This document shows, piece after piece, positions 59,415 to 64,000 of a stretch of 64,000 nt of DNA. The notes below the pieces were generated by a model. The model saw only the letters and a list, made by a program, of their open reading frames with translations. It was not told where the DNA came from and ran no database searches. How positions within the stretch are numbered: position 1 is the first letter of the stretch; each line of letters begins with the position of its first letter. A program made the translations under genes and the position numbers. The DNA is from Micromonospora chalcea (GTDB lineage: Bacteria; Actinomycetota; Actinomycetes; Mycobacteriales; Micromonosporaceae). Location: contig NZ_MAGP01000103.1 in the NCBI RefSeq assembly GCF_002926165.1, positions 1 through 64,000 of the forward strand, read 5' to 3'.

Positions 59415-60053
59415 ATGAGCAGCCGACCCGCCGCCGGCGGCGGCCGGTGGGTCGAGGTCGACCCCGGCCGCGTCGCCCGCTGGGTCGAGGGTTTCACCGA
59501 CCGGCACGGCCCGCCCACGACCACAGTCCAGGAGTACGGGCTCCTCCTCACCGCCCCGGACGACGCCACCGCCGAGCTGCACACCCCGCCCGGGGCGAGC
59601 GCGTCGGCGGACGTACCCGGATTCGTCGCCTCCGCCACCGCGGCCCGCCGGATCGGTCTGCTGCTGGCCCGCAAGGGCGCTGTCGCGGTCGGCGTCGCCG
59701 ACGGCGCCGACCTGGTGGTCTCCAAGGTGGACACCCGGTACGTGCAGGGACGTACCGCGGCGGGCGGCTGGTCCCAGCAGCGGTTCGCCCGGCGGCGCGA
59801 CAACCAGGCGAAGGCGGCCCTGGGCGACGCGGCCGAGCTGGCCGTACGCCTGCTGTTGCCGGAGGCCGGCACGCTGTCGACGCTGGTGTGCGGCGGCGAC
59901 CGGCGCGCGGTGGACACGGTGCTGACCGACCGACGGCTGGCCCCGCTGGCGGCGCTGCGCGCGCCGCGCCTGCTCGACGTGCCGGAGCCCCGGCACGCGG
60001 TGCTGGAGGCCGCCGTCGCGGCCGCCCGGGCGGTCCACATCCTGGTCCGCTGA
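59415..60053 (+). CDS. acVLRF1-family peptidyl-tRNA hydrolase
   Basis: A 212-residue protein of the actinobacterial VLRF1 family, distant relatives of release factor eRF1 and of Vms1, thought to release stalled nascent chains from ribosomes. The catalytic loop with conserved Gln is GGWSQQRFARRRDNQ, preceded by a core beta sheet (GAVAVGVADGADLVVSKVDT). The C-terminal half is eRF1-domain-2-like ([15 protein letters not shown]). Leaderless start likely. Confidence 0.88.
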   Translation: MSSRPAAGGGRWVEVDPGRVARWVEGFTDRHGPPTTTVQEYGLLLTAPDDATAELHTPPGASASADVPGFVASATAARRIGLLLARKGAVAVGVADGADLVVSKVDTRYVQGRTAAGGWSQQRFARRRDNQAKAALGDAAELAVRLLLPEAGTLSTLVCGGDRRAVDTVLTDRRLAPLAALRAPRLLDVPEPRHAVLEAAVAAARAVHILVR

Positions 60054-60218
60054 ACAGGAAAGATCACCTCAAGACGGCGCAATCCCGCTCCTCGATGGTG
60101 CATCGAATCGACTCGATGCCTATCGTCGGTGTCACGAAGCGGCGGGTCTCCGGGCGACCCGCAGGGGCAGCTTCGCCTCCGCCATCACGCGCCGACATCG
60201 TTGGGAGACAACAACTTC
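60054..60218. promoter_or_regulatory. Spacer with a palindrome upstream of the RCC1 gene
   Basis: 165 bp holding GCATCGA-N6-TCGATGC (60100-60119), a perfect 7+7 inverted repeat, followed by TATCGT at 60121-60126, which could be a -10 box. No ORF is supported. Confidence 0.4.
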
Positions 60219-61430
60219 ATGAGCGGATATCAGGACGGCCGGCTGCGAGCCCGGTGGCGCCGTGCGACGAGACTCCTCGTCGCGGCGGCGGCAATGAGCG
60301 CCGGAAGCCTCGTGCTCACCGCCACACTCACCGCCGGTACGGCGAACGCGGGCCCGGCGCAGCGCGCCGCGCTCGCCGCGCCCACCGTCAGCAGCGTCAC
60401 CGCGGGCGGCGCGCACACGTGCGCGATCAGCACCGACGGGGGACTGTGGTGCTGGGGCTCGAACTACGGCGGTCAGCTCGGCGACGGGACCACCACGAAC
60501 CGCAGCGCCCCGACGCGGGTCGGCACCGCCACCTGGACCAACGTCGACGCCGGCACCGGCCACACCTGCGCGGTCCGCACGGACGGGACGCTGTGGTGCT
60601 GGGGCTCGAACTTCCGCGGCCAGCTCGGCGACGGGAGCACCACCAGCCGCAGCGCCCCGGTGCAGGTCGGCACCGCGACCACCTGGGCCCGGGTCGACGC
60701 CGGCCCCCAGCACACCTGCGCGATACGCACCGACGGCACGCTCTGGTGCTGGGGCTTCAACCGGACCACCCAGCTGGGCGTCGGCGCCTCGCCGTACGTC
60801 GCGAACACCCCGCTGCAGGTCGGCACGGCCACCGACTGGGTGAGCGTCTCGACCGGCTACGGGCACACCTGCGGTATCCGGACCGGCGGCACGCTCTGGT
60901 GCTGGGGGGCCAGCTCGGACGGCCAGCTCGGGCTCGGCAACCTGACGCCGCAGACCGCGCCCGCGCAGGTCGGCACCGCGACCGGGTGGACCGGCGTCGC
61001 GGCCGGGTACGCGCACACCTGCGGGGTCCGCGCCGGCGGGCTGTGGTGCTGGGGTGAGAACGGATACGGCCAGCTCGGCGTGAGCGGCTCGTACCGGACC
61101 GCGCCGGTGCAGATCGGCACCGCCACCACGTGGAACCGGATCGCCGCGAGCAGCGACACGTCCTGCGCGTCGCGTACCGACGGCAGCCTGTGGTGCTGGG
61201 GCAAGAACTCCGCCGGGCAGGTGGGCGACGGCAGCACCACCCACCGGTCCGCGCCCGCGCAGGTCGGCACCGCCACCAGCTGGACCGGCGGGCTCGCGGT
61301 CACCGACCACGGCTGCGCGATCCGTACCGACGCCGGCCTGTGGTGCTGGGGCGACAACAGCGGAGGCCAGCTCGGTGACGGGACGACCGTCAACCGGTCC
61401 ACTCCGGCTCAGGTGACACTGCCGGCCTGA
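60219..61430 (+). CDS. Secreted seven-blade RCC1-repeat protein
   Basis: A 403-residue exported beta-propeller. The signal region is [20 protein letters not shown] with cleavage after TANA. Seven repeats follow, each built around LWCWG with an upstream HTCAI-type segment and a downstream QLGDG segment. Each blade carries a Cys in TCA/TCG and a Cys in LWCWG, which suggests one disulphide per blade in the oxidising exterior. RCC1 propellers bind proteins; no enzymatic role is visible. ATG 60219 has GGGAGA about 10 nt upstream. Confidence 0.92.
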
Positions 61431-61446
61431 CCGGCCCCGGAAACGA

Positions 61447-61486
61447 CATCGGCCCGCACCGCCGTCCGTGGCGGTGCGGGCCGATG
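61447..61486. terminator. Bidirectional hairpin terminator
   Basis: Perfect 17-bp stem (61447-61463 with 61470-61486) and a 6-nt loop between the convergent RCC1 and YpfJ-like genes. Confidence 0.85.
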
Positions 61487-61499
61487 CGCCGAGCGGGGA

Positions 61500-62414
61500 T
61501 CAGGCCCCGGCGCCGAAGGTGTCGCAGGACTTCGGGTCACCGGTGGTGAAGCCCTTGGTGAACCACTGCTTGCGCTGCTCCGAGCTGCCGTGGGTGAACT
61601 CGTCCGGGTTCACCGGCCGACCGGAACGCTCCTGGATCGCGTCGTCGCCGATCTTCTCGGCGGCGTCGATGGCCTGGGAGATGTCCTCCTCGGTGATGCT
61701 CTTGAAGATCTTCTGCCCGCGCTCGTCGGCGGTGCCGGTGGCGTTCTTCGCCCACGCGCCGGCGTAGCAGTCGGCCTGCAGCTCCAGCTTCACCGACAGC
61801 GCGTTCGCGCTCTGCGGGTCACGCTCCTGCTGGCGGCGCATCTGCGCCTCGGTGCCGAGCAGGTCCTGCACGTGGTGGCCGTACTCGTGGGCCAGCACGT
61901 ACGGCTGGGCGAACTCGCCCTTGGCGCCGAGCTGGTCGGCCAGCAGCCGGTAGAACGTGAGATCGATGTAGACCTGGTCGTCGGCCGGGCAGTAGAACGG
62001 GCCCACGCCGGAGTCGGCGGCGCCGCAGGCGGTGCTGACGTTCTGGCTGAAGAACACGGTCTTCGACGGCTTGTACTGCTCGCCGAACGCCTCCGGCATC
62101 GCGGTACGCCAGTACGCCTGGATCGAGTTGACGTAGAGAGTGTTGCGGCAGTCGAGCTGCTCCAGCGCGTCCTGCGCCGAGCACTTCTGCTCCAGCGAGG
62201 TGTTGTCGCCCTGCTCGGATCCGCCGCCGTTGGTGGCGGCGTTGAGGCCGAAGCCGCCGCCCACCAGGGCGACGAGCACGGCGATGATGATGCCCACGAT
62301 CCCGCCCCGGCCGCCGCCGATCGGGATCGGAATGCCCATCCCGCCGCCTCCGCCGGACCCTCGCCGGTCGTCCACCTGGCTGGTGTCGACCCGCGCGTTC
62401 TCGTTCAGCTCCAT
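61500..62414 (-). CDS. YpfJ-family neutral zinc metallopeptidase, membrane-anchored
   Basis: A 304-residue protein of the putative neutral zinc metallopeptidase family (PF04228). A Gly-rich N-terminus and one transmembrane segment (IVGIIIAVLVALVGGGFGL) place the catalytic domain outside. Zinc site HEYGHHVQD around residue 176, with conserved ELQADCYAGAWA further on. ATG 62414 with GGGG about 9 nt upstream; longer in-frame options run into the divergent ABC-F leader. Targets unknown. Confidence 0.93.
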   Translation of the reverse strand: MELNENARVDTSQVDDRRGSGGGGGMGIPIPIGGGRGGIVGIIIAVLVALVGGGFGLNAATNGGGSEQGDNTSLEQKCSAQDALEQLDCRNTLYVNSIQAYWRTAMPEAFGEQYKPSKTVFFSQNVSTACGAADSGVGPFYCPADDQVYIDLTFYRLLADQLGAKGEFAQPYVLAHEYGHHVQDLLGTEAQMRRQQERDPQSANALSVKLELQADCYAGAWAKNATGTADERGQKIFKSITEEDISQAIDAAEKIGDDAIQERSGRPVNPDEFTHGSSEQRKQWFTKGFTTGDPKSCDTFGAGA

Positions 62415-62537
62415 GTTGACCCCGATCACCGATGTGTCCGTTTGTGATGGTTGCGGTACCGGACCGGGTCCGGACGGCGGGTTTCGTACCCGATGATCTT
62501 GCACGGTAATCCGGGGGAGAGGGCCCGCGGGGACCGG

Positions 62538-62543
62538 TACACT
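62538..62543 (+). promoter_or_regulatory. Leaderless -10 box of the ABC-F leader ORF
   Basis: TACACT, exactly 7 bases, then GTG 62551, the start of a six-codon ORF. Confidence 0.6.
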
Positions 62544-62550
62544 TGCCCCC

Positions 62551-62571
62551 GTGCTGCGCTGCGAAGGCTGA
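62551..62571 (+). CDS. Six-codon leader ORF upstream of ABC-F gene
   Basis: GTG CTG CGC TGC GAA GGC TGA, encoding fMet-Leu-Arg-Cys-Glu-Gly. It is positioned as a leaderless upstream ORF 91 bp before the ABC-F start, and is followed by a hairpin able to act as an attenuator. Short leader peptides that sense ribosome stalling are known to control ABC-F and other translation-protection genes in Gram-positives. I do not recognise this specific peptide. Confidence 0.5.
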   Translation: MLRCEG

Positions 62572-62579
62572 ACCGCCCC

Positions 62580-62613
62580 GCGCCGACGGGAAATCACCAC
62601 CCGCCGGCGCTTT
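62580..62613 (+). terminator. Attenuator-like hairpin between leader ORF and ABC-F
   Basis: 11-bp stem (62580-62590 with 62600-62610) with one mismatch, loop AAATCACCA, then TTTC. Its left arm can alternatively pair with 62548-62559, over the leader ORF start (CCCGT with ACGGG, and GCGC with GCGC), so two exclusive structures exist. Confidence 0.5.
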
Positions 62614-62661
62614 CGCGTGCCCTGAGTCAGCCCTTCCGGACCCGAGAGCGAGTACTCCGAG

Positions 62662-64000
62662 ATGATCACTGCCACCGGCCTGGAACTGCGCGCCGGTTCC
62701 CGGATCCTGCTGTCCGACACCACCCTGCGGGTGCAGCCGGGGGACCGGATCGGCCTGGTCGGGCGCAACGGCGCCGGCAAGACCACCACGCTCAAGGTGC
62801 TCGCCGGCGAGGGACAGCCGTACGGCGGCCAGATCGACCGGCGCAGCGCCATCGGCTACCTGCCGCAGGACCCGCGCACCGGCGACCTGGACGTCACCGG
62901 CCGGGACCGGGTGCTCTCCGCCCGTGGGCTGGACGTGCTCATGGCGCAGATGAAGGAACTGGAGAACAAGCTCGCCGAAGGCGCCGACGACGAGCGGCTG
63001 GTCCGCCGCTACGGCGCGCTGGAGGACCAGTTCGCCTCCCTCGGCGGCTACGCGGCCGAAGCCGAGGCCGCCCGCATCTGCGCCAACCTCGGCCTGCCCG
63101 ACCGCGCCCTGGCGCAGACCATCGGCACGCTCTCCGGCGGTCAGCGCCGCCGCATCGAGCTGGCCCGGATCCTGTTCCGCGACGCCGGCGAGAACGGCGG
63201 CGGCATCCTGCTGCTCGACGAGCCGACGAACCACCTCGACGCCGACTCGATCACCTGGCTGCGCGGCTTCCTCGCCAACCACAAGGGCGGCCTGATCGTG
63301 ATCTCCCACGACGCCTCGCTGCTGGAGGCGGTGGTCAACAAGGTCTGGTTCCTGGACGCCACCCGGTCCGTGGTCGACACGTACAACCTGGGCTGGAAGG
63401 CGTACCTGGAGGCGCGGGAGACCGACGAGCGGCGCCGCCGCCGGGAGCGCGCAAACGCCGAGAAGAAGGCCGGCGCGCTGATGGCGCAGGCGGACAAGAT
63501 GCGGGCCAAGGCCACCAAGACCGTCGCCGCGCAGAACATGGCCCGGCGCGCCGAGCGCCTGCTCTCCGGCCTGGACGAGGTCCGCGTCGCGGACAAGGTC
63601 GCGAAGGTACGGTTCCCGAGCCCCGCCCCGTGCGGCAAGACGCCGCTGACCGCCACCGGCCTGTCCAAGTCGTACGGGTCGCTGGAGATCTTCACCGACG
63701 TCAACGTGGCGGTGGACCGGGGTTCCCGGGTGGCCATCCTCGGCCTCAACGGCGCCGGCAAGACCACGCTGCTGCGGATGCTCGGCGGGCTGCTGGAGCC
63801 GGACACCGGCGAGGTACGCCCCGGGCACGGGCTGCGGCTGGGCTACTACGCCCAGGAGCACGAGACGCTCGACGTGGACCGGACGATCCTGGAGCACATG
63901 CGCAGCGCCGCGTCCGACCAGACCGACACCGACCTGCGCAAGATCCTCGGCGCGTTCCTCTTCTCCGGCGAGGACGTGGACAAGCCGGCCGGCGTGCTCT
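62662..64000 (+). CDS. ABC-F family ATPase (partial, runs past window end)
   Basis: Cytosolic ABC-F protein with two ATPase modules and no transmembrane domain; such proteins act on ribosomes, as translation factors (EttA/Uup-like) or antibiotic protection factors. First module: GRNGAGKTTTL, signature LSGGQRRR, LLLDEPTNHLD. An Arg/Lys-rich linker of the P-site tRNA interaction motif type follows (RRRRRERANAEKKAGALM), then a second P-loop GLNGAGKTTLLR and YYAQEHETL. ATG 62662 has only a weak SD (GAG). About 446 codons are present; the second signature motif and C-terminus lie outside the window. Confidence 0.93.
   Translation, partial: MITATGLELRAGSRILLSDTTLRVQPGDRIGLVGRNGAGKTTTLKVLAGEGQPYGGQIDRRSAIGYLPQDPRTGDLDVTGRDRVLSARGLDVLMAQMKELENKLAEGADDERLVRRYGALEDQFASLGGYAAEAEAARICANLGLPDRALAQTIGTLSGGQRRRIELARILFRDAGENGGGILLLDEPTNHLDADSITWLRGFLANHKGGLIVISHDASLLEAVVNKVWFLDATRSVVDTYNLGWKAYLEARETDERRRRRERANAEKKAGALMAQADKMRAKATKTVAAQNMARRAERLLSGLDEVRVADKVAKVRFPSPAPCGKTPLTATGLSKSYGSLEIFTDVNVAVDRGSRVAILGLNGAGKTTLLRMLGGLLEPDTGEVRPGHGLRLGYYAQEHETLDVDRTILEHMRSAASDQTDTDLRKILGAFLFSGEDVDKPAGVL

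Follow-up and report, generated by a model that had tools for sequence, protein, structure and literature searches.

The window, a stretch of 64,000 nucleotides of Micromonospora chalcea (contig NZ_MAGP01000103.1, positions 1 to 64,000 of the forward strand), ends within a gene predicted to encode an ABC-F protein. Ahead of this gene lies a leader of 111 nt, counted from the start of a short upstream open reading frame (uORF). The region has the following features:

62492..62514, + strand: conserved upstream block GATGATCTTGCACGGTAATCCGG (GATGATCTTG..CGGTAATCCGG), candidate activator or -35 element (GATCTTG present in all 86 same-genus upstream regions, GGTAATC in 80 of them)
62538..62543, + strand: -10 element TACACT, 7 nt ahead of the uORF start codon (TACACT in 73 and TACAAT in 13 of 86 same-genus loci)
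62551..62571, + strand: predicted leaderless uORF, V/M-L-R-C-E-G-stop (VLRCEG in 58, VLLCEG in 26 and VPRCEG in 2 of 86 loci in the genus)
62556..62560, + strand: 5' strand of helix A2, formed by codons 2-4 of the uORF, which match the Shine-Dalgarno (SD)-like tract by complementarity (aligned partner 62645-62649)
62563..62571, + strand: 5' strand of helix A, end of the uORF and stop codon (9 base pairs formed with 62627-62636 in the minimum-energy fold)
62580..62610, + strand: hairpin B, arms GCGCCGACGGG at 62580-62590 and CCCGCCGGCGC at 62600-62610 (10/11 pairs change on both sides among 71 leaders)
62611..62618, + strand: T-enriched tail TTTCGCGT behind hairpin B, candidate weak terminator or pause (T count over 71 leaders)
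62627..62636, + strand: 3' strand of helix A, TCAGCCCTTC (fold, covariation and swap test)
62644..62652, + strand: SD-like purine tract GAGAGCGAG, partner of the uORF (kept in alignment A1; presumably used as SD)
62662..64000, + strand: ABC-F gene, 535 aa, ATG at 62662, extending beyond the window end (NCBIfam and Pfam-type domain matches)

The first-pass annotation had described TACACT, 7 nt, a six-codon uORF and a TTTC-tailed hairpin before the ABC-F gene, and the letters agree with it, the uORF reading GTG CTG CGC TGC GAA GGC TGA; the hairpin of 11 bp, however, consists of 10 pairs and one A.C mismatch. Judging from the spacing to the -10 element, transcription presumably starts on the G of the GTG at 62551. 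The conserved block further upstream is possibly an activator site, since its distance to the -10 element exceeds that of a usual -35 element. A promoter scan detected no sigma-70-type promoter. As the neighbouring gene on the opposite strand, encoding a zinc peptidase (Pfam PF04228), starts at 62414, the region contains two divergent starts. No Rfam 15 covariance model matched within 60000-64000 at E-values up to 1.

The ABC-F protein, which comprises two ABC_tran stretches and an ABC_tran_Xtn domain, scores 366.4 bits against the NCBIfam model NF000355 (ribosomal protection-like ABC-F), under the curated cut-off of 380; its orthologues of genera g50 and g45 reach 389.9 and 340.3 bits, respectively, g50 being called Streptomyces by likeness to S. 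coacervatus and g45 Mycobacterium type because a Mycobacterium MAG has a similar upstream sequence. The ABC-F protein is probably a ribosome-protection factor. An orthologue was found in 120/121 genomes of the genus, 246/250 of the family and 376/394 of the class, and in 38/396 genomes of a phylum-wide draw (E 1e-140).

The search for uORFs was limited to those beginning with ATG or GTG 4-9 nt or 5-8 nt past TANNNT, and altogether 316 loci (104 + 100 + 30 + 22 + 60) had their upstream regions inspected by script or by eye; two Streptomyces loci of a set of 30 (L237 and L238) were left out at a contig end. More than 120 loci were found in the genus and 86 of them retrieved; every upstream region retrieved carries TACACT or TACAAT, a spacer of 6 nt (58 loci) or 7 nt (28 loci) and a uORF of the form V-(L/P)-(L/R)-C-E-G-stop, always starting with GTG; VPRCEG is the form in Micromonospora sp. 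MH99. The same arrangement arises at frequencies of 0.000-0.004 in dinucleotide shuffles of the upstream regions of five groups of loci (about 0.001 for the genus, against 86/86 seen). Outside the genus, the leaderless-type geometry was detected at 58/83 loci of the family. At the level of genera, 31 of the 44 sampled possess a leaderless-type uORF at this place and 12 lack it, while in g6 the region is rearranged. Beyond the genus, the uORFs mostly encode VLLCEG or VLLCED, and seven-codon variants that keep the frame occur as well (MLHRCED, MLRRCED and VLVRCQV). One locus of genus g18 (L059) represents a natural loss of the start codon, the leader being kept and the codon reading GTA.

A covariance model of the leader found one convincing site in the genome of the window (E 3.5e-26), and the second-best match (L243, E 0.196) was set aside on inspection of its sequence. 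Applied to 150 genomes of the family, the model yielded 92 matches at E up to 0.01 in 90 genomes and 30/44 genera. Out of the 76 matches compared to ABC-F coordinates, 74 end at the start codon and the others 135 and 23 nt short of it; the 16 matches outside this comparison include the four weakest and the second hits.

Covariation was counted on an alignment (A1) of 71 of the 122 distinct leaders, comprising 47 from other genera and 24 of the same genus chosen for diversity; genera g4, g6, g24, g33, g38, g40, g43, g44, g50 and g54 were omitted as deviating. In the combined structure of helices A2 and A and hairpin B, 14/22 pairs show double changes, and 96 compensated cells compare to 28.6 +/- 3.7 in shuffled alignments (0/500). 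The bulk of this covariation sits in hairpin B (10/11 pairs), so that the covariation check proposed in the first-pass annotation has turned out clearly in favour of the stem. Lack of conservation of the six codons and the stem among orthologues was one of the outcomes named as speaking against its proposal of ribosome-dependent control; both are conserved, the uORF in 86/86 loci of the genus and 31/44 genera. RNAalifold recovered, unaided, hairpin B, four pairs of helix A and two small extra helices, with compensated cells in 10/18 pairs. The fold energy of the leader is unexceptional compared to shuffles (z -0.71 and 0.10); support for the leader comes from conservation and covariation.

The first-pass annotation had drawn the switch as an alternative pairing of the uORF (62548-62559) with the left arm of the hairpin (62580-62590). 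This part of its proposal has little support: positions 62548-62550 precede the predicted start of a leaderless transcript, and the remainder is paired in 80.1% of cells among the 71 leaders, compared to 79.0% in shuffles (44/500 as high). Counted by changed cells or by score, the pairing is reached by 21/500 and 42/500 shuffles, respectively; it does beat slid registers, and its middle pair is unpaired in 41/70 leaders. Being hardly above shuffles and showing little covariation, it was rejected.

Better support, though weaker than that for hairpin B, was obtained for a partner of the uORF located before and over the SD-like tract, namely 62627-62636 together with about 62645-62652. Helix A is paired in 96% of cells of alignment A1, and all of its 9 pairs form in the minimum-energy fold of the window. 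Only 6 of the 9 pairs could be counted, since A1 was not refitted for a bulged C; one of them carries 10 compensated cells (0/500 for cells). The number of double-change pairs of helix A taken alone is no higher than in shuffles (465/500). Sliding the register by +2 or +3 yields a better covariation score than helix A itself. Helix A2 shows three double-change pairs with 6 compensated cells compared to 0.9 +/- 0.8 in shuffles (0/500), with 14/500 shuffles equalling its score and 96/500 its pair types; the middle pair is unpaired in 25/71 leaders and is a G.A mismatch in the window. In the window's minimum-energy fold the register is shifted over the purine tract, 62551-62555 pairing with 62651-62655 and 62557-62560 with 62647-62650.

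The pairing was furthermore assessed by a swap test, in which the uORF was folded against the last 30 nt of its own leader and of those of other species in five overlapping clade sets. In each of the five sets, the mean pairing energy of a uORF is more favourable with the ribosome-binding region of its own gene than with exchanged regions: -15.96 versus -13.89 kcal/mol in the family representatives, from which g6 is excluded (0/2000), -14.76 versus -12.39 kcal/mol in a Streptomyces paralogue of the ABC-F gene (0/2000), -12.20 versus -11.70 kcal/mol in the Streptomyces orthologues (2/2000), -18.05 versus -16.53 kcal/mol in family f91 (60/2000, n=8) and -15.36 versus -11.66 kcal/mol in a set with one member per clade (0/2000). 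The last set consists of 21 hand-chosen members shared in part with the other sets, and where two candidate uORFs existed the last was taken. When the test was split in the family representatives, helix A2 gave 1/2000 and helix A 0/2000. Swap and shuffle statistics both ignore phylogeny, and the guard against shared ancestry is provided by control segments and by a local hairpin C. Ten control swaps with segments past the uORF or with the promoter ranged from 67 to 1903/2000 and mostly showed no such preference, the lowest being the 'mid' segment of the paralogues. Hairpin C, which would pair the 3' strand of helix A with the SD-like tract, fails the swap test (734/2000) and was dismissed. A further helix, CGCTTTC/GAGAGCG, had been noticed on visual inspection of same-genus leaders and is used by two occupied-state folds of L001; judged without a formal count, it was discarded, being changed or weakened in three same-genus rows (L012, L036 and L052).

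We consider it rather probable that the leader acts by translational attenuation, with the uORF itself as the anti-SD strand and its occupancy by a ribosome switching the ABC-F gene on. A leaderless transcript start would leave the six-codon uORF accessible to leaderless initiation only. In the empty state its RNA would fold back over hairpin B. The end of the uORF would then be paired to 62627-62636, and the first codons to the purine tract presumed to serve as the SD of the ABC-F gene, whose translation would thereby be lowered. A ribosome held on the uORF, either by a drug stalling early elongation or by slow termination, would remove this strand and allow the ABC-F protein to be made. Sequence comparison establishes the conserved leaderless-type geometry, the covarying hairpin and the complementarity between uORF and ribosome-binding region in several clades; we infer the start site, the use of the tract as SD, that occupancy is what throws the switch and in which direction, and what the inducer is. 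Ribosome-dependent control of the ABC-F gene, as suggested in the first-pass annotation, thus appears probable with uORF, hairpin and gene conserved, even with its own switch abandoned. Its statement that the direction of control could not be deduced from sequence is partly overtaken, as a uORF complementary to the ribosome-binding region should favour expression when occupied.

Ribosome occupancy was simulated by forbidding pairs in the uORF and 9 nt beyond it and comparing the openness of the SD. Openness increased from 0.10 to 0.38 in f91 (8/8 up), from 0.20 to 0.38 in the paralogues (14/17 up) and from 0.35 to 0.50 in other clades (10/14 up), and a small gain from 0.42 to 0.48 was seen in Streptomyces (26/42 up). 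In the window's own family there was no clear effect (0.31 to 0.34, 15/31 up). An earlier simulation of 122 family leaders gave a similar picture for the SD-like tract (0.31 to 0.33-0.36; 83/122 up with 27 nt blocked). In these leaders a 12-nt segment at the start codon lost openness (0.70 to 0.59-0.61), and no gain was seen over the full 28-nt stretch (0.51 to 0.49-0.50). The best SD site of the window's family is also weaker against the anti-SD (-5.4) than those of the other sets (-5.9 to -6.8). Given this flat response, the direction proposed for the window is drawn from architecture and co-variation instead of thermodynamics.

The weak simulated opening of the SD in the window's family favours another layer of control, and attenuation could be transcriptional or mixed: hairpin B with its T-rich tail would form a weak actinobacterial terminator or pause, the position of the ribosome on the uORF would decide about read-through by RNA polymerase, and the pairing of uORF and SD would be a second layer. 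A precedent is cplR of Clostridioides difficile, which according to the accessible parts of its description joins translational and transcriptional layers (PMC10201436). The strong covariation of hairpin B and its mean energy of -19.7 kcal/mol are in line with such a role, as is the tail, where the 8 nt behind the hairpin contain on average 3.86 T compared to 1.40 expected (at least 4 T in 50/71 leaders), leaving room for a transcriptional step. However, the longest T run does not exceed 3 in 69/71 leaders, a terminator scan of 62380-62720 returned 0 terminators, and helix A can coexist with hairpin B, the competing pairing of uORF and left arm showing little covariation. A function of hairpin B as weak terminator is possible, and control of this kind as the main explanation seems unlikely to us, though by no means far-fetched.

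Further evidence bearing on translational attenuation comes from other Actinomycetes, in which leaderless mini-uORFs with different peptides precede the orthologue: MAILLAH-type in Streptomyces (MAILLAH itself in Streptomyces coacervatus), MRTPD or MHTPD in Nonomuraea-type genomes (MHTPD in Nonomuraea deserti), MPTPD in Microtetraspora and VVVLLE in Prauserella alba. The leaderless-type geometry was found at 11/11 loci of g50 and at 22/40 loci of a class sample hand-picked among the best-scoring matches listed, compared to frequencies of 0.000-0.004 in shuffles in both cases. Such a uORF is absent from 14/14 loci of family f2, is present in 1/10 of a further set and was not found upstream in the records of a Mycobacterium MAG, Gordonia, Nocardia, Cellulomonas, Frankia and several others.

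The window's ABC-F protein probably belongs to the same protein group as OcrA (Rv1473) and MAB_2736c, mycobacterial ABC-F proteins which the accessible parts of two papers tie to linezolid and chloramphenicol resistance (PMC9159947, PMC13041422); the identity of 69% refers to the g45 orthologue of Mycobacterium type and not to Rv1473 itself. Unlike the window, all nine g45 loci (L096, L098, L100, L102, L104, L105, L108, L109 and L200) lack the leaderless uORF, and in 9/9 the orthologue lies closely behind an apparent reading frame ending in TDDK, which suggests that control differs there.

The Streptomyces paralogue, which is 55-60% identical to the ABC-F protein, is preceded by a leaderless-type uORF encoding MSTPR(I/V)S at all 17 loci fetched (L374-L390), the shuffled frequency again lying within 0.000-0.004; paralogue uORFs in S. 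lydicus and Actinomadura read MSTPRVS and MASPRIS, respectively. The 13 distinct uORFs among the 17 loci differ from one another solely by synonymous third-position changes and an I/V exchange at one site, and heterozygosity by codon position amounts to 0.47/0.00/2.69. Judged by this pattern, the reading frame of the uORF is under selection, most clearly in the paralogue. Together with the constant GTG start in the genus and the length variants in frame, it provides indirect evidence for translation of the uORF. The corresponding values of 0.88/1.20/1.59 in the Streptomyces orthologues and 1.12/1.76/1.14 in the window's family indicate little or no constraint at the protein level, and there RNA pairing, instead of the peptide, may hold the codons. 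By eye, a hairpin is visible behind the paralogue uORF, followed at several loci by a T-rich stretch, and the paralogue may therefore combine both layers of attenuation.

Two other readings of the uORF appear very improbable. In the first, it would sense charged tRNA-Cys through its conserved Cys codon, codon 4 being UGC and never UGU in 18/18 distinct uORFs (133 loci, a set selected for Cys at this codon), and leaderless polycysteine sORFs are cited for mycobacteria. Against such a scenario, the uORF contains a single Cys codon, the gene behind it encodes an ABC-F protein and no cysteine function, and the uORFs ahead of orthologues elsewhere (MAILLAH, MRTPD, MNSVAD, VVVLLE, MPLLLD and MLLSDD) do without Cys. 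Equally little speaks for a promoter with a stabilising 5' structure in which the short ORF is incidental: stem-loops near the 5' end can stabilise an mRNA, shuffled sequences fold just as stably as the leader and L059 keeps its leader with GTA in place of a start codon, but the constant GTG 6-7 nt past the -10 element, the length variants that keep the frame, the purely synonymous variation in the paralogue and the co-variation with the ribosome-binding region in several clades all argue against it.

Extending translational attenuation beyond the family, we tentatively propose that leaderless uORFs of 5-8 codons, sensor and lid at the same time, might gate one ABC-F lineage together with its paralogue throughout the Actinomycetes. 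Their codons would act as anti-SD with the peptide free to vary, and they would sense whether ribosomes occupy a 5'-end AUG or GUG while initiating in the leaderless (70S-type) manner and during early elongation. The broader proposal is less secure than the one for the window, yet if true it would describe a general, peptide-independent read-out of early-elongation stalling. The mechanism proposed for the leader would predict an induction route for a nearly universal ribosome-protection-like factor of the Actinomycetes (376/394 genomes), organisms known for antibiotic production. The leaderless ORF as anti-SD would be a very small and testable design, of which several independent versions are open to mutation, and the leader could serve as a natural reporter for early-elongation stalling and leaderless translation.

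In leaders of the cat and ermC type, the SD stays sequestered until a ribosome stalls on a short leader ORF; these leader ORFs have an SD of their own and the anti-SD lies mostly outside them. The window's leader may resemble them, as pairing over its presumed SD is supported by co-variation and disruption of this pairing by a ribosome was seen in simulations of f91, the paralogues and other clades; it differs in that its uORF is of leaderless type and would itself provide the anti-SD strand. Leaderless polycysteine sORFs of mycobacteria reportedly act as attenuators as well. A leaderless short ORF as attenuator would be common to both, the start in the window being predicted from the -10 spacing; in place of a run of Cys codons the window's uORF has one and related uORFs have one or none, an ABC-F gene follows and the peptides are lineage-specific, the comparison being restricted to features other than structure.

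Pairing of a uORF with downstream sequence is described in the accessible parts of PMC13236596 as a general device by which translation attenuation can hide an SD, with polycysteine genes cited as regulated in this way, and such pairing is thus not new by itself. The resistance ABC-F genes vmlR, cplR, lsaA, msrD, lmrC, tiaA and are5sc possess attenuation leaders with short uORFs, where a ribosome stalled on a very short uORF exposes the ABC-F gene; the term 'leaderless' occurs in neither of these papers (PMC10201436, PMC12421871). The window's leader shares the defining arrangement of the vmlR/cplR type, an ABC-F gene immediately preceded by a short uORF that is conserved, a likeness drawn on the leaders and not on the protein subfamily. 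In contrast, the uORFs of are5sc and tiaA carry ribosome binding sites, and ABC-F leaders reported in the same work measure 194 and 232 nt and contain predicted terminators (PMC12421871), compared to 111 nt from the uORF start in the window, where the codons of the uORF match the ribosome-binding region. A reannotation of S. lividans lists, in its accessible parts, eight leader peptides, none of them ahead of an ABC-F gene, amino-acid genes having been examined for them (PMC8079986). We accordingly file the leader as a variant of ribosome-mediated attenuation, in which a leaderless-type uORF before this ABC-F gene, probably serving as anti-SD, is the element without an earlier description in the literature searched, most subscription papers and all preprints lying outside its scope.

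Three minor observations were made alongside. A distant locus (L370, genome G791 of family f94) carries a uORF encoding VLRCEP, similar to the window's peptide in a different RNA context, which may represent convergence or transfer. Upstream of the MAILLAH uORF of three g50 loci (L088, L223 and L227), GGAAA lies 17-18 nt before a GTT overlapping the -10 element TAGACT, an arrangement which bears a faint likeness to SigR-type promoters. Finally, an ORF at 60129-61430 of the window contains WCWGxNxxGQLGDGT-like repeats, which by eye are presumably RCC1-like.
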